In this document: positions 3,676 to 41,570 of the stretch, piece after piece
Position numbering within the stretch: position 1 is the first letter of the stretch
How the letters are laid out: each line of letters starts with the position of its first letter
Position numbers and translations under genes: made by a program
Notes under the pieces: generated by a model
Seen by the model: the letters and a program-made list of their open reading frames with translations, nothing else
Database searches by the model: none
What the model was told of the DNA's origin: nothing
DNA from: a virus
Length of the DNA stretch: 42,717 bases
Strand: one strand, 5' to 3'
Virus record (IMG/VR): IMGVR_UViG_3300045965_000114
Coordinates: 1-42,717 of that record

Positions 3676-4114
3676 CGCCTTCGTCGGTGACGCGAGCGGC
3701 CTTCAGGATGTTGCCGCTCGACGGCAAGGCGACGCCGGCCTTGTTGCGCAGGGAGAGTTTGAGCTTCATCGGCAGGATCGGCGCGATGACCGGGGCCGGG
3801 CGTTGCGCCGTGGCTGCCGTGGTATCGAGGCCGAAGGTCGCGAGTAGCCCCGTGGTTTGGAGCGCCTTGCCGTGGTCCGAGTAGTTGGTGCCGTCCGCTG
3901 CATACTCGGCCCACACATCGACGTAAGCCCCAGCGGTTGGCGAGAGCGAGGCGAGAATCAATTCCAGCATGATGAACGGGTAGCGGGTGCCGGTGGAATT
4001 GTCGATGGCGGACGACGCGGCAGAGAACGAGCCGTCAGCGAGCGAATTCAGTTCGGTGGTCAGAACGGAGGCTAGACTTTCCGGGGCCGCCCAATCGAAG
4101 GTGGTCGTCGCCAT
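3668..4114 (-). CDS. Hypothetical virion-region protein, 148 aa
   Basis: The beta-rich sequence includes PFIMLELILASLSPTAGAYVDVWAEY and a C-terminal segment LKLSLRNKAGVALPSSGN. Soluble, with no membrane segment or signal. It directly precedes the LamG-like appendage gene, with a small overlap, and is probably a tail or appendage partner. No named family is recognised. Confidence 0.65.
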   Translation of the reverse strand: MATTTFDWAAPESLASVLTTELNSLADGSFSAASSAIDNSTGTRYPFIMLELILASLSPTAGAYVDVWAEYAADGTNYSDHGKALQTTGLLATFGLDTTAATAQRPAPVIAPILPMKLKLSLRNKAGVALPSSGNILKAARVTDEGVA

Positions 4115-4116
4115 GT

Positions 4117-4482
4117 TTACGCCACCCCGCCGAGCACCCAGGCCGTCCCGTTCCAGGTGGACCCGTAGCGATTCCAGGGATTGTTGGTCGTCACGTCATC
4201 CTGAAAGGCTTGCCACCGGAGTTGGAGTTCGGCTTGGTACTGCGGCATCGACCACCCCGTCTGCCCGTTGATCGTGTCGACCTTCTCCGTGACCGACCCG
4301 TTGACGATTTGCGCATTGTCGGCCGCAATCGCGTCCTTCCACGCCGACACGGTGCCGGCGGGTTGCGCATAGAACGACTGGCGCGACGGCGGCACGTCGG
4401 CCCAGAGCACATAGCGAAAGATCTTCTGCTCGTCGGCCGCTCGGCCTTTGTCGAGAATGATCACGCGGAAGCGTGCCGCCAT
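4117..4482 (-). CDS. Hypothetical virion-region protein, 121 aa
   Basis: The ATG at 4482 follows an AAGGAG ribosome-binding site. The sequence begins with a hydrophobic strand (RFRVIILDKG) and ends in an aromatic-rich NRYGSTWNGTAWVLGG segment of a kind common in phage surface proteins. It sits two bases upstream of the next gene in the appendage cluster. The function is unknown. Confidence 0.65.
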   Translation of the reverse strand: MAARFRVIILDKGRAADEQKIFRYVLWADVPPSRQSFYAQPAGTVSAWKDAIAADNAQIVNGSVTEKVDTINGQTGWSMPQYQAELQLRWQAFQDDVTTNNPWNRYGSTWNGTAWVLGGVA

Positions 4483-4494
4483 CTCTCGGCTCCT

Positions 4495-4965
4495 TTAACT
4501 CGCGCGATAGAAGCCCGCCGCGTTCACTTGGGCGGTAATGTCGGAGCCGTCTGGGGTGACTTCGAAATCATGGAGCGTCATCGGTACAATGCTCGAATCG
4601 GCGCTGAACGCCGGGTTGTAGCAGATGATCAAATCCGTCCACGCCGTGCCCCCGACGACCGCGGTCCATGTCTGATCCGGGATGTCCAAATCGACGCGGT
4701 CGTTGGCGTCGTCAGGGGAAAACGCCACAAGATCAGCCGCCGCCAAGGTCTTGCGCGCGTAATTGGTATTGGTGACTTCAGCCGATCCACCACCACCGGG
4801 CAGACATTGTGCGAGCGTATCGAAATCCCGAAATTGAGCATCCGTCGTCGTTCCAGCGTTGACGACGACAATCGTGAGTCGAGATGTCGACGGGTCGCCG
4901 CTCTTGACCCGCTGGTAGTAGCCCGCCACCGATCCCTTCGCGATGTTCGGGATAAGATCCGCCAT
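4495..4965 (-). CDS. Hypothetical virion-region protein, 156 aa
   Basis: The ATG at 4965 shares a base with the previous stop (TGATG). This is favoured over an in-frame start six codons upstream. The protein is soluble with many Asp and Thr residues, including DANDRVDLDIPDQTW, and beta-strand-like segments. It is one of a set of medium-sized genes beside the appendage protein, so a minor structural role is likely. Confidence 0.65.
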   Translation of the reverse strand: MADLIPNIAKGSVAGYYQRVKSGDPSTSRLTIVVVNAGTTTDAQFRDFDTLAQCLPGGGGSAEVTNTNYARKTLAAADLVAFSPDDANDRVDLDIPDQTWTAVVGGTAWTDLIICYNPAFSADSSIVPMTLHDFEVTPDGSDITAQVNAAGFYRAS

Positions 4966-5327
4966 CAATTCTCCAGTTCGCACGCAAAGAACGAGTCTTT
5001 GCGATAGCCCGACGGGTTGTTCCGATCCGGCGACGGCGTCCCTTGATGCCGCTCGGCGACATGCGCCTCGGCCGCCCGGCTGTCGTCCAGCGCCCGGTTA
5101 CAGTGGCAGCAGTAGTAGCCGGGCGGCAGCACGATCCGGTACGTCAGCGTTTGATTGTCGCCGCGCACGATGACTTTCCCGCGCTCCATCGTGAGCCACC
5201 CTTCGGAGACCCCCTTCTCGATTAACCGGGGGGAGAAGTTCTGCGTGGGGTCCGACTCCAGCACGGTCACGCCGCGCACGATGGGCGGATTGGTCAGGGG
5301 CTGGCGATACAGGCGCTTGAGCCTCAC
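4965..5327 (-). CDS. C2H2-type zinc-finger-containing hypothetical protein, 120 aa
   Basis: Residues about 70-95 contain YYCCHCNRALDD followed by AEAHVAERH, a C-x2-C...H-x4-H arrangement like a single zinc finger. The N-terminal half is strand-rich (TLTYRIVLPPG). It is ATGA-coupled to the coiled-coil gene upstream. A structural role with a zinc-stabilised tip or a nucleic-acid contact are both possible. Confidence 0.65.
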   Translation of the reverse strand: MRLKRLYRQPLTNPPIVRGVTVLESDPTQNFSPRLIEKGVSEGWLTMERGKVIVRGDNQTLTYRIVLPPGYYCCHCNRALDDSRAAEAHVAERHQGTPSPDRNNPSGYRKDSFFACELEN

Positions 5328-6023: not shown

Positions 6024-7264
6024 CCGGCCGTATACAGTAGCCGATTCAGCGCCTGCGGGTTGCGCCCCACAAACGCCATATTGGCGATGACTTCGGGGGT
6101 CAACGCGCCAGCCGCCGCTCCGACGCCCAATCCAAGTCCGCCGCCGATGGTCATGGCGCCGCCCGCCGATCCGAAGCCACCCCCGAGCGCGCCGAGCGTG
6201 CGCCCCATGGCGTTGTAGGCCATGTCGGGCGGCAGACCACGGAAGCGTTGAACGAATTGATCGATGACCCTGACGCCCTCGGGGCCGAGGTTGGCGGTCA
6301 ACTGCTTGCGCGTTTCGGGCTGTCGTGAAAGGCGCATCAGCGTCGCGACATTCAGCGCCGGCACTTCGGCGCCTGACGTAATCCGTACCGTCGTCGCCTT
6401 GTCGATCAGCGAGCCGACGAGCGAGGCCCCAAGATCCTGCTTGAACGCAGTCGCGGCCTGACGCGCGAGGTCGGCTCCCACGCCGCCCGATGCCGCGGCC
6501 GACTCGAGATCCTTGACGATGCCGCCGTAGATCCCGCTGAGCTCGGCCGGCGCGTTGCGCAAGAGTGGCCCGATATCTCGGCGGACGGCTTCAAGTTCGA
6601 CCAAGGGAATCTCGCCCGTTGGCGTCATCTTGGCCTGCAGATTGTCGATGGTCGTCCGCACCGCCTGGGCCTTGGGATTGGCCGGTGTCGCGGGGAGCGT
6701 GATCCCGCTGATGACGCTCTGAATGTTCTTCGACGGGATCATGTCGCCGCCGGCAGCGCGAGCTGAGCGCGCCAGTTGGCCTACATCGACCGACGGTCGA
6801 AGGCTCTCGACGGCTTCCTGCCCCGCTTGTCCCGCGGCACCCTGCGCCCGTTCAAAGAGGGTGGGCGTCAGCCGTTGCGCGGTGCGCACGCCTCCCCGGA
6901 CCAATCGCCCAGCCGCGCCCATCACGGGCGGTATCGCCCCGGCGACCGCAATGGATTCGGGATCTAATTCTTTCCGATCGCCCATGACGTTCTCGGCGCC
7001 CTGCGCAAGATATTCGCCCGCAGCCGACGCGGCACCCGAAACGAGCGGGTGCGGAATCAGTCCCGGCGCGACCCGCAGGGCCGCCGCCTGACCTTCTAGA
7101 CGGGGCTTCTCGCCCGCAAGAGTTGAGGAGACGTACTCCCCGACGGGATCAATGACGCCGCCGATCTGGCGCAGCGTTTCCATGATCCCGCCCCCGCCGC
7201 CTTCCGAGGGTTTCGGCTGGCCCTGTGGCGGCTTGATGCCGAGGAGTTCATAGGCGTTCGGCAT
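5978..7264 (-). CDS. Probable internal virion / DNA-ejection protein, 428 aa
   Basis: The ATG at 7264 overlaps the upstream stop (TGATG); a GTG one codon earlier is also possible. The sequence has a Gly/Pro-rich N-terminus, an Ala-rich helical middle (about residues 120-330), and a Gly/Ala-rich hydrophobic C-terminal segment (about 360-400, GGGFGSAGGAMTIGGG). Such Ala/Gly-rich amphipathic proteins beside the nozzle gene in short-tailed phages are typically ejected pilot proteins that form a channel. No named family is recognised, so the role is inferred from composition and position. Confidence 0.6.
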   Translation of the reverse strand: MPNAYELLGIKPPQGQPKPSEGGGGGIMETLRQIGGVIDPVGEYVSSTLAGEKPRLEGQAAALRVAPGLIPHPLVSGAASAAGEYLAQGAENVMGDRKELDPESIAVAGAIPPVMGAAGRLVRGGVRTAQRLTPTLFERAQGAAGQAGQEAVESLRPSVDVGQLARSARAAGGDMIPSKNIQSVISGITLPATPANPKAQAVRTTIDNLQAKMTPTGEIPLVELEAVRRDIGPLLRNAPAELSGIYGGIVKDLESAAASGGVGADLARQAATAFKQDLGASLVGSLIDKATTVRITSGAEVPALNVATLMRLSRQPETRKQLTANLGPEGVRVIDQFVQRFRGLPPDMAYNAMGRTLGALGGGFGSAGGAMTIGGGLGLGVGAAAGALTPEVIANMAFVGRNPQALNRLLYTAGQGMRAASPPLEEWR

Positions 7265-9318
7265 CACTTCACCTCAAGCAATGGGTCAAAGCCACGTTGC
7301 TGCAGGAGATCGATCGTCTTCTGCGGGTCGCCCTTGGCATCACGCCGCGCCCGCGCGAAATCCTCCTTGGTCGCGCTCTTCAGGGCCTGGGATGGCGCGG
7401 CAGCGCCTTGCTCGGCACCGCCCTCCATCTTCTGAATCATCGCCTGCACCTTGGCGTCGATGTAGGTGCGCGCCTCGTCAAGCGACTGACTCCCGAGGAT
7501 GACGCGCTTTTGTGCCTCGGTAGCCGTCTCAAGCAAAATGCGCAGCATACCGATCTTCGCGTCACGGATCGTCGCTGTATCCCCGAAGCCCGGCAGCGAG
7601 CTCGTGATGCGGATGATGTCTCGATCCGTCAGGACGCCACGCTCACCGCCGATCGCACGCGAGAGTACGCCGTTAAATGATTGCTTGGAGTCGAGATACA
7701 TCGCGGCGAGCGGATTCGTTTTCGCGAGCGCGCCGCCCTGGAGCACCGCTTGTTGCCGCACTGCACCCAGCGCCGTCTTCGCCTGAATGAGCGGCTTCGT
7801 CATTGAGTCGACGCCAGAAATGATGGCACGCGCTTGATCGAGCCCGGCGAGCTGCTCGCGCATCTGCGGCGTGACTTCTCGCGCGCCGGCTGCAATCGCC
7901 TGCGCTCGCGTCATGCCAGTCGGGACCGATTGGCCGTTGGGCATCAGTAGGTTAGAGGCTTCCTTCGGCTCCATCGGCAGCGCCCGCTCGGCGCCAGTTC
8001 GGGCAGTGACGCCTGCCGCCGCCTCGGCCGCCGTCCGCTCGGCCGCCTGCCGCGTCTTAAGGCGGGCTGCCTCGCTCTGGACATCGAGATAGTCGAGACC
8101 TTGCCCGCCGGATGGAGCAGCTGGCGGTGCCGGAATCACGCCTGACTGCGTCGGCGAATACGATGGCGCCGGCGCGGGCGTGCGCGGCTGGGCGGGTGCG
8201 TTCTGCGGGGCGCCCGATTGCGGCATCGGCCGCAACGGCTGCTCACCGCGTCGGCCAAACATCTGATAGAGGCGACTCATGTAGACGGCTTGGTCCGCTG
8301 GATCGGATGGGCGGGCGGCGATGAGCCCCGTTAACTGGCGATACCGCGGGTCATTGCGCTCGACGTTGAACGAGTCCGCGATGCCCTCGATCTCCGATTG
8401 CTTATCAGTCGGTGCGGCCTCGCCCTGCGGCACCCACTTCCCGACTCGGCCGGTGGCGGGATCGCGCTGCTGTACGAATTTGTACGTCCGCCCGTCCGGC
8501 CCGCGCATCTCGGTCGTGCCAAATTCGATCGAGCCCGGAGCCTCGTGGAAGGACGGCTCGCCGCGAGCATTGAGCGTCATGCTCTGGCGCGGGGTTGGCG
8601 TAAGGGTCTCGGGTAGCTCGGACGTCGGCGCTTGCCCCGTCGGTGCCGCTGGCGCTGGTACGGCAGGCGACGGCACGGGCGGCGGAACACTCGGACCAGG
8701 ACCGGCAGGCGGCTGACCGCCCGTAAACCGCTCGGCCATCCTGTTCCGCTGTTCTGGAGTGAAGAACCCCGGTCGCCCGCCGCCGAGCCGAGTGCCCGAG
8801 GGCATCTTGCTCACGTCGTAGACGACCGACTCCTCTTGGTCGGTGTCGGGGTTGTACTCCTTGATCACCTGATAGTGCGGCCTCGCCCCGATCATCCCCG
8901 ACAGCAGCCCCGCGGCTTCTCGGCCGTATCCAGGCCCGCCAGTCATCGCTCGCACTAGGCCCGTCTGCGCTGGCCCGAGAACATCCGAAAGCCGCTGCTG
9001 GCGAGTCGGTATCTTTGCCGGCTCCGCAGCATCGGTGCCGCCGCCGGTTGCAGTTGGCGTGAAGGCCCCGGCGTCGGGGATCTGCTCGCCGGTCGGCTGC
9101 TCGAGCAGGTTCGACAACCGCATCCCGAGCGCCTGCTCGTTCGCTTCCTGGCGACCGATCAGGCGGGCCTGAAGTTGGGTTTGAACAGCAGAGGTCAATC
9201 CGGCGAGGCCCCGAGCTCCAGCTGGGTGAAGAGAAGCGGCCGCGCCCGCTGCCAAGGGCAGGGCGTAGGCCACGATCTTCTCGGGGATGCTGGCGTCGGG
9301 GGCTGCGAGTCCGCTCAT
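7264..9318 (-). CDS. Large probable internal virion protein with disordered Pro-rich middle, 684 aa
   Basis: The start at 9318 overlaps the previous stop as ATGA. The N-terminal 70 residues are helical with a hydrophobic patch. Residues about 67-70 (RLSN) and 109-112 (RLSD) carry the short motif shared with four other proteins of this phage. A long Pro/Ala/Gln-rich, likely disordered stretch spans about 190-400, and a helical C-terminal domain follows (TLGAVRQQAVLQG-like region and a conserved-looking ITSSLPGFGDTATIRDAKI). Probably an ejectosome or pilot component. No lytic-transglycosylase motif is seen. Confidence 0.6.
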   Translation of the reverse strand: MSGLAAPDASIPEKIVAYALPLAAGAAASLHPAGARGLAGLTSAVQTQLQARLIGRQEANEQALGMRLSNLLEQPTGEQIPDAGAFTPTATGGGTDAAEPAKIPTRQQRLSDVLGPAQTGLVRAMTGGPGYGREAAGLLSGMIGARPHYQVIKEYNPDTDQEESVVYDVSKMPSGTRLGGGRPGFFTPEQRNRMAERFTGGQPPAGPGPSVPPPVPSPAVPAPAAPTGQAPTSELPETLTPTPRQSMTLNARGEPSFHEAPGSIEFGTTEMRGPDGRTYKFVQQRDPATGRVGKWVPQGEAAPTDKQSEIEGIADSFNVERNDPRYRQLTGLIAARPSDPADQAVYMSRLYQMFGRRGEQPLRPMPQSGAPQNAPAQPRTPAPAPSYSPTQSGVIPAPPAAPSGGQGLDYLDVQSEAARLKTRQAAERTAAEAAAGVTARTGAERALPMEPKEASNLLMPNGQSVPTGMTRAQAIAAGAREVTPQMREQLAGLDQARAIISGVDSMTKPLIQAKTALGAVRQQAVLQGGALAKTNPLAAMYLDSKQSFNGVLSRAIGGERGVLTDRDIIRITSSLPGFGDTATIRDAKIGMLRILLETATEAQKRVILGSQSLDEARTYIDAKVQAMIQKMEGGAEQGAAAPSQALKSATKEDFARARRDAKGDPQKTIDLLQQRGFDPLLEVK

Positions 9319-35565: not shown

Positions 35566-36203
35566 GGCACAACCCTCAAGCATGTGAACCGGAGTTCTGT
35601 AGCGCCTGAATCAGTTGCCTTCCCGATGAACTCGGTGTAGGCGGGCGGGATGGCCTGGGAGAGCTCGTCGCGATTCATCCAGTCGATGCCCATAACCTCC
35701 CGCCACTCGGCCACGCCGTGATAGATATGCCCGCCGTGCCCGAACACGCTGATGATGTTGTCGTCGTCGTGGGCGCAGGGCGGCAGCAACACGAGCGGCT
35801 TATGGAAGCCGAGCTCAAACCAGCGATGGCGCTTCAGCCTCGGCTCTCCGAAGTTGGAGCCGCAGAGCACCACGTCGGCCAGCATGGGAGCGCCAGGCAC
35901 GTTCTCGATAATCCACGGGCGCAGGGTCACCCCAAGAGCCCATCGGGTCGGCGTCAGCAGGTCGGGATGCTCTCGGCCATGGATGACCCTGGCTGTCGTG
36001 AACGCTTGGCACGGCGGGCTCGCGTGGATCGCGTCGAACTCATGCCCGTGCGCCTTGACGTACTCGAGCGCATCGCCCTGGACGAACGTGAAGGGATACC
36101 GCGGCTGGGGCTTGATGTCCACGCCGACGATTTCATCGAAGCCCGCGCGGTGATAGCCCATCGCCGCGCCGCCCGCGCCACAGAAGGCGTCGAGGAGTCT
36201 CAC
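35562..36203 (-). CDS. C5-cytosine DNA methyltransferase, 213 aa
   Basis: Motif I LDAFCGAGG (residues about 4-12), motif IV SPPCQAF with catalytic Cys near 65, motif VI ENVPG near 100-104, motif VIII RHRWFE near 125-130. It adds a methyl group to C5 of cytosine from S-adenosylmethionine. At 213 residues it is clearly shorter than the usual 300-400 and has little space for a target-recognition domain, so sequence specificity may come from a partner or be minimal. ATGA-coupled on both sides. Likely shields phage DNA from host restriction. Confidence 0.9.
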   Translation of the reverse strand: MRLLDAFCGAGGAAMGYHRAGFDEIVGVDIKPQPRYPFTFVQGDALEYVKAHGHEFDAIHASPPCQAFTTARVIHGREHPDLLTPTRWALGVTLRPWIIENVPGAPMLADVVLCGSNFGEPRLKRHRWFELGFHKPLVLLPPCAHDDDNIISVFGHGGHIYHGVAEWREVMGIDWMNRDELSQAIPPAYTEFIGKATDSGATELRFTCLRVVP

Positions 36204-36673
36204 GCTCGCGTCCGTCTCGCAAATTCCGCGATCAAAAGGGCATCCGCGCGCCCGTCGTGCTTCTTGAGGTGGAGCTCGATCTGGGGGAAGAGGGCTTGCG
36301 CCTTGAAGCGGGCGGCGTCCTTGTCCTTGCCCTGGCCGTCGAGCATGGTTTTTTTCCAGCGTTGGGGCGTCACGTACTCATAGGGGATGGCAAGCGCGGC
36401 GAGCATGCCTTCCCACAGCCCACAGCCGACACCTAAAGTGTGCATAGATCTCACGCCTTGTTTTGGCATGGCGTGGACGCGCTCGATGAGGGCGAGCGCG
36501 TCGCGGGTGATCGGGCGCAGGCGCTCGGCCATCACGGTCGCGTGGTACTGGCGCTTGAGGCCGCGGCCCTTGATAACGAGCGTCGGCGTGTCGTAGACGA
36601 GCACCGTATTCTCCGTGAGGCCGAGGACGGCCATCGCGCCATCAAGTCCTGGATCCACACCCAGATAGATCAT
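36200..36673 (-). CDS. RuvC-like Holliday-junction resolvase, 157 aa
   Basis: Begins [19 protein letters not shown] with catalytic Asp near residue 7. Later acids include Glu near 64 (ALALIERV) and Asp 140/144 in [18 protein letters not shown]. The four-acid RNase-H-like set is complete. It would cut branched recombination or packaging intermediates. The ATG at 36673 overlaps the HNH gene stop as ATGA. Confidence 0.85.
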
Positions 36674-37188
36674 GATGCGATCTTCGTCCGGAAAGTCCCG
36701 TTCGCTCTCCTGGGCAGCGGAGGACGGTTCTGCATCTGCTCGCTGCGCGTCGCCCACCGACAGTTCTGCGGCGAGTACGGGCCATTGTTATCGATTCGGT
36801 CCAGTGAGTGCCCCGTCGGCCGCGGCCCCATGTCGGCGTAGAAGTTCTCGAACGTCTGCCAGCGGTCGCAAACCGTAATGCCGCGCGCGCCGTAATACTG
36901 GTACGAAATGTGAGACGACGCTGCACACCGCTTCCGCATGCCGAGCCAGGTTTGATACTCAGGAGAGCCGTTGCCAGAACCCACACGGCCATGGCGTCGA
37001 TTGCCCGACCGGGTGCCAAGACCATGGTTCTTCATCAGCCGCCACACGATTTTCTGTGTCAGACCGACTGCCAACGCGATCGCGGCCTGCGAAAGTCCCT
37101 CAGCGTAGTGGCGCCGCACCGCCGCCACCAGCGACGCTGGATATGACTTCGGCTCCATCGGACGACGGGCATATACCCCCTTGGGCAC
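36670..37188 (-). CDS. Homing-endonuclease-like protein with HTH, 172 aa
   Basis: N-terminal half holds an HTH-like segment ([20 protein letters not shown], ...[17 protein letters not shown]). The C-terminal half, [54 protein letters not shown], is a HNH-like nuclease core found in phage mobile endonucleases. Strong AAGGAGG ribosome-binding site before the ATG. It splits the replication/recombination block. Confidence 0.8.
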
Positions 37189-38716: not shown

Positions 38717-38764
38717 GGCAGCTCCCGTGCGGGGTGGGGGGTGATTCGCGAACGAGGAGCCAGA

Positions 38765-38783
38765 CTGTCCGTGTCTGTCCGTG
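38765..38783. repeat. Two CTGTCCGTG repeats (integrase arm-site candidates)
   Basis: CTGTCCGTG at 38765-38773 and 38775-38783, 10 bp apart, followed by the 38809-38837 hairpin. TGTCCG recurs at 38971 and 38997 and twice near 33567-33580. Repeats of this kind beside an integrase can be arm-type binding sites. Confidence 0.4.
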
Positions 38784-38912: not shown

Positions 38913-39578
38913 TCATATTGCCGCACTTTTTTCTTGAGAGATGTCACTGATTTCACCAGGTTCCGTAGAGTGTCCGTTGTTGCTCTGTACGTCCGCTGTC
39001 CGCCACTTGGTGTTCAGTTGGGGCCTCAAAGAGCGTATGGCATGGACTTCAAAGGTCGCTGCGTCCTTCTCAGTGCCGAACGTCCAGAGCAGCAGATGAT
39101 CATCGTCCTTGATCACCACTGATCCCTCTGGCCTGATCGCTGCGTCAAGGCGGTGATGATTGGCGGCGCATGGACGGGAGATGCCGACAGCGCTCCGGCC
39201 GATGTAGAGGGCTCGCCCCTGGCGGAAGTAGCCATAGACGACATACCCGAACATGCGGCGCAGCTCGGGAGGTTCAAACACAACGGGAGTCGGCCCCCCG
39301 AGCATCAGCGCGGTATGAATCACCGCCCAGTCGTGGGGCGTATAGGACGCTTTCGGCTGTCGAAGCCTCAGTGCTTGGGGATCACCGAGGCCGCGGTACG
39401 ACAACGCCCGGACCTTTAACTTCAGGGCTTCCCGAGCGTCCTCCTCCGTACAATCGGATGGGCGTTTTCTGAGTAACTTCGCGACTGACTCACGCCGCTC
39501 CTTTTTGTTCGCGTAGTAGGCGATGAACCAGGTCCCGCTCTCTCGATGACGGAAGATGCGCCCGCTACCACGTTTCAC
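38913..39578 (-). CDS. Integrase arm-domain/GIY-YIG nuclease fusion, 221 aa
   Basis: Residues about 5-60 (GSGRIFRHRESGTWFIAYY, then RESVAKLL and TEEDAREALKL) match, residue by residue, the arm-binding domain of the integrase next door (GFGRVFKRRNGGYAIAYY, RESVARAL, TEQDAKALLEQ). A linker is followed at about 111-190 by GYVVYGYFRQGRALYIGRS, HHR near 141-143, and FEVHAIRSLRPQLN with the catalytic Glu near 177, a GIY-YIG nuclease. The ATG at 39578 overlaps the integrase stop as ATGA. It would cut DNA near sites that the arm domain recognises; the target is unproven. The ends after about 190 look disordered. Confidence 0.85.
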   Translation of the reverse strand: MKRGSGRIFRHRESGTWFIAYYANKKERRESVAKLLRKRPSDCTEEDAREALKLKVRALSYRGLGDPQALRLRQPKASYTPHDWAVIHTALMLGGPTPVVFEPPELRRMFGYVVYGYFRQGRALYIGRSAVGISRPCAANHHRLDAAIRPEGSVVIKDDDHLLLWTFGTEKDAATFEVHAIRSLRPQLNTKWRTADVQSNNGHSTEPGEISDISQEKSAAI

Positions 39579-40654
39579 GCCTTCTGTGCCTCCCTGTGCT
39601 CCTGGAGGCGTTCAAGGGTCTTCGCGAGCGTCTTTCGGTCGACTATGGCGTAGCGATAGAAGACCGACATGGAGCGATGCCCGGTCACCTTCGCGGCGAC
39701 GTGCGGGTCTACGCCGGCGTCGATCATGTCTCGAGCCGCAGAGCGTCGGAGGTCATGCGGCACGCGCCCGACCACGCCCGCGGCCGCGCACGCCTGACGC
39801 CAAACGTGCCGATAATCCACGATTGGCTTGCCGTTCCTGTGGAAAACCCATGGGCATTCCGCGGCCGCGACCTTCCTAGCGAGCCACCGTCGCTCTATAA
39901 GCCACGTCAGGTCCCCGACCAAGGGGAGGACACGCCCCTCCCCGTTCTTCGTGTCCTGGAGGCGAATCTCGCCCCGTACACGGTCCACCTGAGTCCAGGT
40001 GAGCCCCTTCGCCTCCCCGCCCCGCCAGCCGGTCAGGTGCTCGAATTCGACGAGGTCGGCGACGGCTTCCGTGGTCGGCTTCTTCCGGAGCTCGGCGATG
40101 ACGGCGCGCGCCTGGTCGGGTTCGAAGAAGCCTTGGCGGGCGTTCTGGACCCGGATACTCGGGAAGTACGGCAGGGTCGCAATCAGGCGCTCTTTGTGGG
40201 CCAGGCGCATCGCGGCCCGGAGGTTGGCGATCCGGAGGGCGACGGTGCCGGGCTTGTAGCCTTTGTCTAGTAGCCGCTGGCTCCACCGCTTGAGCAGCGG
40301 CGAGGTCAGATTGCGGACTGGCGTCTTGGCCCCGAGCTCGCCCGCGATCATGCGCGACTGGATCTCCAGCCACTTGATGCCCTTCTTGCCGGCGAGCTTC
40401 ATCGTTTCGATACGGTTGTTGAGGACGTCGGCGAGGGTGTCGAGGGGCGTGGTGATGAGGGTGCCTTGGCGGCGTTCGCCGAGGCGTTGCTCGAGCAGGG
40501 CTTTCGCGTCCTGCTCGGTGACTTCGTGGGCTTGGCGGCCGAGGGCGCGGGCGACGGACTCGCGCATCTCGACGCCGTCAAGATAGTAGGCGATCGCGTA
40601 ACCGCCATTTCTTCGTTTGAACACCCGTCCGAAACCGCGCAACCTTGCTTTCAT
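39575..40654 (-). CDS. int: Tyrosine integrase, 359 aa
   Basis: Arm-binding domain at residues about 1-65, core-binding domain 65-165, catalytic domain 175-340. Catalytic set: Arg 211 (TGWRGGEAKGL), Lys near 236 (DTKNGEG), His 300-Arg 303 (HDLRRSAA), His 326 (TGHRS), Tyr 335 (FYRYAIV). It recombines attP with a host attB by strand exchange. TAATG coupling with the Mom-like gene upstream and ATGA with the GIY-YIG gene downstream. The phage is therefore temperate. Confidence 0.95.
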   Translation of the reverse strand: MKARLRGFGRVFKRRNGGYAIAYYLDGVEMRESVARALGRQAHEVTEQDAKALLEQRLGERRQGTLITTPLDTLADVLNNRIETMKLAGKKGIKWLEIQSRMIAGELGAKTPVRNLTSPLLKRWSQRLLDKGYKPGTVALRIANLRAAMRLAHKERLIATLPYFPSIRVQNARQGFFEPDQARAVIAELRKKPTTEAVADLVEFEHLTGWRGGEAKGLTWTQVDRVRGEIRLQDTKNGEGRVLPLVGDLTWLIERRWLARKVAAAECPWVFHRNGKPIVDYRHVWRQACAAAGVVGRVPHDLRRSAARDMIDAGVDPHVAAKVTGHRSMSVFYRYAIVDRKTLAKTLERLQEHREAQKA

Positions 40655-41217
40655 TAAGTCCCCCTCTCCCCCGCTTTGGTTTGTGACGCTGGGCCGGGGG
40701 CGGGGGCGCTCCCGTGAGAGTGAGATCGGCCGATCCCACTCGACCCAGCGGTGCGACTATCTTTAATGCGCAGCAATTCCGGGCGGTCAGCATCATCGCG
40801 GAGTACATATATCCAGCGGTCCTTCACGGCTTGTGGCCCACTGCCCCAATCGCCGTTACCAGTTGGCGGCGGGAACAAGCGATGCCACGTCGGAGCCCAT
40901 TGCCAATTACAGGCTTTATAGAGCGCCCCCGTGTGTCCCTGGCTTGGGTCGCTGTAACTCACGAGGGTCGTTAGGTCCGGCCGCGCCTTCGTGATCCATC
41001 GACGCCATCGGGCAAATTGTTGAGAGCCGCCGTTCTTCGTCCCGACCAAACACCAACGCACCAGCTCGAGCCAGCGATCATGTGGAAGCCGACGCGACGT
41101 AGGCGCAGCCCACACCATCACGCCAAATTCATCTTGCCAAGCGATCCCGCGATCGGTCGGGCCGAGATAGTGATTGCGATCCAAGAACTCGGCGACTCGA
41201 CGAACGGGAACAATCAT
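40654..41217 (-). CDS. Mom-like DNA-modification protein, 187 aa
   Basis: RNHYLGPTDRGIAWQDEFGV near residues 14-33, a helix WLELVRWCLVG, and the key segment TLVSYSDPSQGHTGALYKAC (about 84-103), a pattern that recurs in phage Mom-like adenine-modification proteins and relatives of the GNAT fold. WAPTWHRLFPPP follows. The tail (about 150-187) is Ser/Gly-rich. It would add a carbamoylmethyl-type group to adenine or act on another substrate; the call is by pattern. It sits just upstream of int and is coupled by ATGA to the HTH gene. Confidence 0.6.
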   Translation of the reverse strand: MIVPVRRVAEFLDRNHYLGPTDRGIAWQDEFGVMVWAAPTSRRLPHDRWLELVRWCLVGTKNGGSQQFARWRRWITKARPDLTTLVSYSDPSQGHTGALYKACNWQWAPTWHRLFPPPTGNGDWGSGPQAVKDRWIYVLRDDADRPELLRIKDSRTAGSSGIGRSHSHGSAPAPGPASQTKAGERGT

Positions 41218-41570
41218 CGCTTCAGCCACGGATACGCCGGCCGCTCCTCTTCTATTGCTCGAAATTCGGGCCGCTGCTGCCACGCCTCGATGGCCTTGCG
41301 CGACCAGGCGAGGCGGCGGGTGCCGGTTGGGAGGGTCAAGGCTTTGAAGGTTGAGCGGGCTCCGCGTGCGAGCGTGCGCGGCGCGATCCCTACGAGCCTA
41401 GCCGCTTCGCTAGTCGTGAGCGTCTCGGCCAGCGCGCGCTCCATCGCGACCGACGGACGCGGCTCGCCCATCAGGGCCAACGCACACGCCATCAGCGTCC
41501 TCACGAGAACATCACGCGGTACGCCCCGCGCCAGCTCGGGATTCGTCGCGACGGCGTCGAGGGTGATCAC
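41214..41570 (-). CDS. HTH_17 / excisionase-like DNA-binding protein, 118 aa
   Basis: LTTSEAARLVGIAPRTLARG (about residues 51-70) followed by a strand region TLPTGTRRLAWSRKAIEAWQ is the standard MerR/excisionase-like HTH with wing. The N-terminal 50 residues are helical. Position two genes upstream of int suits a recombination-directionality factor or regulator; not proven. ATGA overlaps on both sides. Confidence 0.65.
   Translation of the reverse strand: MITLDAVATNPELARGVPRDVLVRTLMACALALMGEPRPSVAMERALAETLTTSEAARLVGIAPRTLARGARSTFKALTLPTGTRRLAWSRKAIEAWQQRPEFRAIEEERPAYPWLKR

Follow-up and report, generated by a model that had tools for sequence, protein, structure and literature searches.

Organization of the fusion gene and the integrase gene

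The window analysed in this study is a 42.7-kb virus record (IMG/VR record IMGVR_UViG_3300045965_000114) that was read at its full length and contains the tailed-phage genes terminase, portal and head. A minus-strand gene at 38913..39578 encodes a 221-amino acid (aa) protein with a GTG start, in which an integrase-type arm-binding domain is fused to a GIY-YIG nuclease domain. The fusion gene lies directly behind the gene for a 359-aa tyrosine integrase (39575..40654, minus strand; PF00589, E 1.8e-21), which gives the only PF00589 match in the whole record. The integrase stop and the fusion start overlap by 4 nucleotides (nt), read from the sequence as GTGA (39575..39578, minus strand), and the start of fusion translation is likely coupled to the integrase stop. 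An earlier note on this DNA had described the two genes as an ATGA-coupled operon; the operon arrangement and the 4-nt overlap were confirmed, whereas the overlapping sequence is GTGA in the window and ATGA in a relative (L009).

The fusion protein consists of an N-terminal arm-binding-like domain (residues 1–60, 39399..39578), a linker that was modelled mostly with low confidence (residues 61–102, 39273..39398), and the nuclease domain (residues 103–190, 39009..39272), all on the minus strand. The N-terminal arm-binding-type domain of the integrase is encoded at 40475..40654 on the same strand, and is the closest relative that we found of the fusion N-domain.

The fusion N-domain is related to the integrase arm-binding domain

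BLASTP alignment of fusion residues 3–56 with integrase residues 6–58 yielded 23 identical residues of 54 (43%, E 8e-10). The pairwise score of the two domains was reached in none of 500 shuffles (z 19.1), in agreement with the earlier claim that the first ~60 residues of the protein resemble the arm-binding domain of the adjacent integrase. The fusion and integrase of the window also have a longer middle segment in common (VAKLLRKRPSDCTEEDA and VARALGRQAHEVTEQDA, respectively), which the other integrases examined do not contain. No copy of the fusion N-domain besides that of the adjacent integrase was identified in a six-frame scan of the whole record. When the profile of the N-domains of four fusions was compared with that of seven integrases, the match had a probability of 97.5 and an E value of 7e-12.

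An AF2 model built from 12 sequences predicted strands at residues 6–10, 17–23 and 26–31 and a helix at residues 45–60 of the fusion, i.e. a β3-α fold that is predicted to be shared with the integrase domain. The mean predicted local distance difference test (pLDDT) values over residues 1–60 were 79–97 per 10-residue block, mostly >90. Foldseek placed an AP2 repeat protein among the leading PDB matches of the model, although each such match was weak, and the BFVD matches include an integrase DNA-binding-domain protein. L009 was the only fusion member with an arm-type match in Pfam (PF14657, E 0.0014), which falls under the curated cut-off. From the sequence kinship and the predicted fold we conclude that the fusion N-domain is an integrase arm-binding-type (AP2-like) domain. 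A recent duplication of the 5' end of the integrase gene at the nucleotide level was considered and rejected; only short patches of DNA identity were found in the window, and therefore any copying must be old.

The C-terminal part is a divergent GIY-YIG nuclease domain

The single fusion sequence did not match any GIY-YIG family in Pfam, PHROG or NCBIfam. A profile of the fusion family matched UvrC GIY-YIG structures with an E value of 1.6e-6 when three members were included and 7e-8 when eight were included. Residues Y115, Y125, R135, H141, E177 and N189 are invariant across all eight relatives. The catalytic Arg (R135) lies eight residues after the YIG glycine and N189 lies 12 residues after E177, with identical spacing in all eight; the resulting Y-10-R and E-12-N spacing is UvrC-like. 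The assignment of the remainder of the protein to GIY-YIG, which the earlier note had made from a GY..YIG motif, is thus upheld by way of the relatives' profile, but the wording of the motif is not, as the window protein reads V-V-Y115 followed by Y125-I-G.

The AF2 model from 12 sequences contained a GIY-YIG-like C-domain with pLDDT values of mostly 58–86 per 10-residue block; a model from the single sequence was uninformative (pLDDT 40). All of the top seven PDB matches in Foldseek were UvrC GIY-YIG domains with probabilities of 0.77–0.97, although the E values were only 0.1–0.3, so that these fold matches are supportive but by themselves not decisive. Hpy188I was also among the PDB fold neighbours, beside UvrC and AP2. 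When a four-row nuclease profile was run on 47 bacterial genomes from one small phylum, long open reading frames (ORFs), mostly of UvrC size, were recovered in 15. We conclude that the C-terminal part of the fusion is a divergent GIY-YIG nuclease domain with a complete predicted active site. Invariance of the catalytic positions across eight divergent relatives argues that activity has probably been retained.

The fusion recurs directly behind tyrosine recombinases

All of the fusion relatives were obtained by searching either with integrases or with motifs. Fifteen viral loci were reached with an alignment of integrases related to that of the window, two of which (L009 and L011) carry fusion-like downstream ORFs, and motif-based scans added L020, L026/L030, L033, L035 and L059. 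Neither scans with the single protein, run on viral contigs and on bacterial genomes, nor tblastn searches of phages and plasmids returned fusion relatives, and a closing scan with a further alignment gave no additional fusion. Two candidates were discarded: the L023 pattern match was a chance YIGRSAVG within an unrelated long ORF, and a protein of phage Clover (E 0.1) has a GIY-YIG-like end and a different N-terminus.

A two-domain protein is encoded directly behind a tyrosine recombinase in four records, namely the window and three other contigs; recurrence beside an integrase was a point on which the earlier note had made its proposal depend. In L009 the integrase gene (414–1493) overlaps the fusion gene (from 1490) by ATGA, in L011 10 nt separate the integrase gene (4007–5071) from the fusion gene (from 5082), and in L056/L033 the recombinase gene ends at 1086 and the adjacent fusion ORF begins at 1087. 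Four further relatives (L020, L026, L035 and L059) do not contain the N-domain. PF00589 matches were present in 4/4 of the fusion records compared to 0/4 of the records of these N-domain-less relatives, a difference with a one-sided chance of 1 in 70, to be read with the caveat that it was the integrases that first led to L009 and L011 and that some of the records are fragments. Both L009 and L011 were recovered again by a nuclease-based scan.

The fusion gene is absent beside the integrases of L008, L013 and L014, each of which is 62–63% identical to that of L011, and is therefore optional. Such patchy presence is as expected of a gene resembling those for homing endonucleases. Standard profiles do not detect this rare family, which is consequently missed by annotation. 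Two other records from the survey contained features of a different kind. L057 carries an ATPase-like ORF with an apparent intein-like insert (7114–9171) in addition to a stand-alone GIY-YIG relative, and in L003 two different tyrosine recombinases are encoded back to back on one phage contig (3509–5669).

Correspondence between fusion N-domains and their integrases

The N-domain of the window fusion scored 108 with its own integrase, compared to at most 57 with other fusions and at most 49 with other integrases. The L011 N-domain scored 118 with the integrase of its own record, and no score elsewhere exceeded 82. Thus, among the domains compared, the N-domain is closest to the arm domain of its own integrase in two of the four fusions. 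Tree placement agreed for both pairs, at support values that were modest (89/76 for the window pair). The linker motif RGLGxPxxL is common to the window and L056 fusions, which suggests that the fusions descend from a common ancestor and that the window N-domain came to match its own integrase afterwards.

Neighbouring genes

The minus-strand gene string consists of, in order, a helix-turn-helix (HTH)/excisionase-like gene (41214..41570; phrog_66, E 1.8e-5), a Mom-like DNA modification gene (40654..41283; PF25680, E 1.8e-12), the tyrosine integrase gene and the fusion gene. The Mom-like gene overlaps the integrase start, and the presence of Mom within an integration gene string seems unusual; no Mom match was obtained in the other three fusion records. 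Elsewhere on the minus strand of the window (36200–37188), a 172-aa HNH endonuclease-like ORF with an HTH-like N-terminus (phrog_3377, E 9e-40) overlaps a gene for a RuvC-like Holliday junction resolvase (phrog_1770, E 2e-33).

Attachment-site context

No tRNA remnant that could serve as an attachment (att) core was found near the fusion gene of the window. The repeat CACGGACAG, which occurs twice, 10 bp apart, downstream of the fusion gene (about 38763–38783; 38765–38783 as a 9-mer), was examined as the only candidate for an arm-repeat array and rejected, as such repeats occur in 19 of 122 tiles and the occurrence of the motif with one mismatch is at the chance level.

Relatives provided further candidates. 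The stretch of L056 between the recombinase and the fusion domain contains a tRNA T-arm sequence, CCGGGTTCGACTCTCGG, which a covariance search did not call; its identification as an att core is only suggestive. The T-arm-like sequence is situated inside the only standard-start frame of the fusion ORF, which opens with the GTG at 1087 after the recombinase stop (1087–1240). If it were the att core, integration would part the fusion start from its domains. L007 is a relative in which the nuclease is missing; its integrase gene, of the same family, is directly followed by the 3' half of a tRNA (4928–5005; weak tRNA-Sec match, E 0.03), which is likely an att core.

Relation to known systems

The earlier note had set this layout apart from those of normal homing endonucleases and second integrases; to call it unknown among proteins would be too strong. 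Odn, the origin-directed nuclease of vibriophage ICP1, combines an N-terminal RepA_N domain, 42% identical to the initiator of its target, with a C-terminal GIY-YIG-type domain, and binds and cuts the matching origin (PMC8263062). Odn and the fusion are alike in that a C-terminal nuclease of the GIY-YIG superfamily is preceded by a DNA-binding-type domain that matches part of a mobile-element protein (RepA_N at 42% identity for Odn and the integrase domain at 43% for the fusion) (PMC8263062, PMC10448857). They differ in that the domain of Odn came from the replication initiator of a rival and is aimed at the origin of that rival, whereas the arm domain of the fusion matches the integrase of its own operon. 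The donor of the fusion N-domain was not a rival element, since the best match among all domains compared was the phage's own integrase, and no rival was found in the collections searched. Furthermore, the profile of the fusion nuclease resembles UvrC, and no match to the T5orf172 family was seen.

The operon also has a counterpart. In the Tsy transposons, an accessory and patchily distributed GIY-YIG nuclease shares its operon with a tyrosine recombinase and an HTH protein, and can raise transposition although it is not essential (PMC10293859). Tsy has a second tyrosine-recombinase protein, TnsF, whereas the window is a tailed-phage record with one PF00589 match, and the part of the Tsy report consulted does not mention an arm-domain fusion (PMC10293859). 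AP2-like DNA-binding domains are joined to nucleases in the HNH-AP2 homing endonucleases of phages and protists as well (Magnani 2004, via PMC10448857). These enzymes have an N-terminal HNH domain, a C-terminal AP2 domain and no tie to an integrase (PMC10448857).

The fusion resembles I-TevI and Seg-type homing endonucleases in combining a GIY-YIG catalytic domain with a separate DNA-binding part. In those enzymes the catalytic domain is N-terminal and the NUMOD, zinc-finger or HTH part is C-terminal, whereas the order is reversed in the fusion, for which no NUMOD match was found. The N-terminal GIY-YIG domain of UvrC is the closest solved structure by profile (E 7e-8) and by fold, with the same spacing of the Y, Y, R, E and N residues; however, UvrC is a repair enzyme of about 600–700 aa with no arm domain. 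A full-text literature search combining the Pfam arm-domain name with GIY-YIG returned no paper, and a survey of the GIY-YIG superfamily does not use the word integrase (PMC1564403). The components and the principle of the chimera are therefore known, while an integrase-derived targeting domain within an integrase operon appears to be new, as no published description was found.

Proposed function and alternatives

The N-domain of tyrosine integrases of this type binds arm repeats flanking the att core, and the position at which a GIY-YIG domain nicks or cuts DNA is set by the domain to which it is linked. Our analysis shows the domain make-up, the conserved active site, the recurrence beside recombinases and the pair-specific N-domain likeness in two of the four fusions; the nuclease activity, arm-site binding, protection of the phage's own DNA and biological purpose in the following account are inferred. 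By analogy with Odn and Tsy, the fusion would be an arm-site-directed nuclease, in which an AP2-like arm-binding domain, of the type present at the N-terminus of tyrosine integrases, was added to a GIY-YIG domain whose relatives occur by themselves in phage records without an integrase. The N-domain would bring the nuclease to the arm-type repeats on either side of the attachment core, and DNA nearby would then be nicked or cut by the GIY-YIG domain. As the fusion would be made from the integrase transcript by coupled translation, it would act when integration and excision proteins are made. Its targets would be the att/int regions of co-infecting or resident relatives with common arm sites, and the outcome would be destruction of the target or copying of the int-nuclease cassette into it (homing). 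We give an even chance to this interpretation of the fusion as a chimeric, site-directed nuclease that most likely acts against the att/int regions of relatives sharing its arm sites.

Several observations weigh against this interpretation. We located no attP, significant arm-site array or rival target in the window. The N-domain of L009 is arm-type but unlike that of its own integrase, and the neighbouring recombinase of L056 has no visible arm domain; these two cases break the pattern, and therefore aiming at the sites of the phage's own integrase is not general. Independent borrowing is not proven either, as a single origin of all four fusion N-domains was not rejected by the tree (approximately unbiased [AU] p 0.16), which did not separate independent origins from a common one (AU p 0.11–0.16). 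Finally, unless its sites were protected, the phage would itself be endangered by the nuclease that it encodes.

The strongest competing explanation, which we consider possible but doubtful, is that the fusion is a non-essential accessory factor of the phage's own recombination. Nicking at arm sites would release supercoils, take the intasome apart or bias the reaction towards one direction, thereby raising the efficiency of integration or excision. The likeness of the N-domain to that of its own integrase is the strongest point in favour of such a role, to which the operon position as in Tsy, the coupled translation and the absence of the gene beside many related integrases, which marks it as optional, can be added. 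In Tsy, deletion of the nuclease impaired transposition and yet the nuclease was not essential (PMC10293859). However, the window contains no second recombinase (TnsF), the L056 nuclease is paired with a recombinase that lacks an arm domain, the Tsy nuclease may be unrelated to this one, and cleavage may not be what matters in Tsy. We rank the competitive or homing role above the accessory role because the nuclease lineage stands alone in integrase-free phages and its distribution is patchy.

An ordinary free-standing homing endonuclease that came to lie behind int by chance is unlikely. Its AP2-like domain would bind its own homing site (e.g. within int), and the likeness to the integrase would result from gene conversion or a local duplication rather than from common binding sites. 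Points in its favour are that phage HNH homing endonucleases are known to be combined with AP2-type domains and that nuclease genes occur at boundaries of genetic exchange (PMC10448857), together with the patchy distribution and the occurrence of GIY-only relatives without int. This explanation does not readily account for the position of all four N-domain-bearing members found directly behind a recombinase, with none elsewhere, and the pair-specific segment of the window proteins points to selection for the binding specificity or to its recent copying.

I-TevI can repress transcription, and a non-cutting competitor for arm sites that tunes the integrase, with the nuclease fold kept as a scaffold, would similarly make use of a co-expressed protein that has its binding domain in common with the integrase; such a decoy or regulator is improbable, as all catalytic positions are invariant across eight divergent relatives. 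Least probable of all is a restriction-like pair in which the phage is protected by Mom-type modification and DNA that lacks it is cut by the nuclease, since the position of that gene directly upstream of int, the existence of GIY-YIG restriction enzymes and the fold match to Hpy188I are set against the lack of a Mom match in the other fusion records and a specificity domain that is integrase-type rather than restriction-type.

More broadly, we tentatively suggest, at somewhat less than even likelihood, that the arm-site-directed fusion represents a class of attachment-site-directed nucleases in which a homing-type GIY-YIG domain is combined with the arm domain of its own integrase. One unit would then both join and break att DNA, for use in prophage contests over att specificity or in steering integration and excision. 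If true, the principle of Odn, a nuclease aimed by a borrowed DNA-binding domain, would apply to integration sites in addition to replication origins. A handle on the question raised by Tsy, i.e. the role of a GIY-YIG nuclease in a tyrosine-recombinase operon, would be gained as well, and competition for arm sites among prophages whose integrases are related would become open to direct tests.
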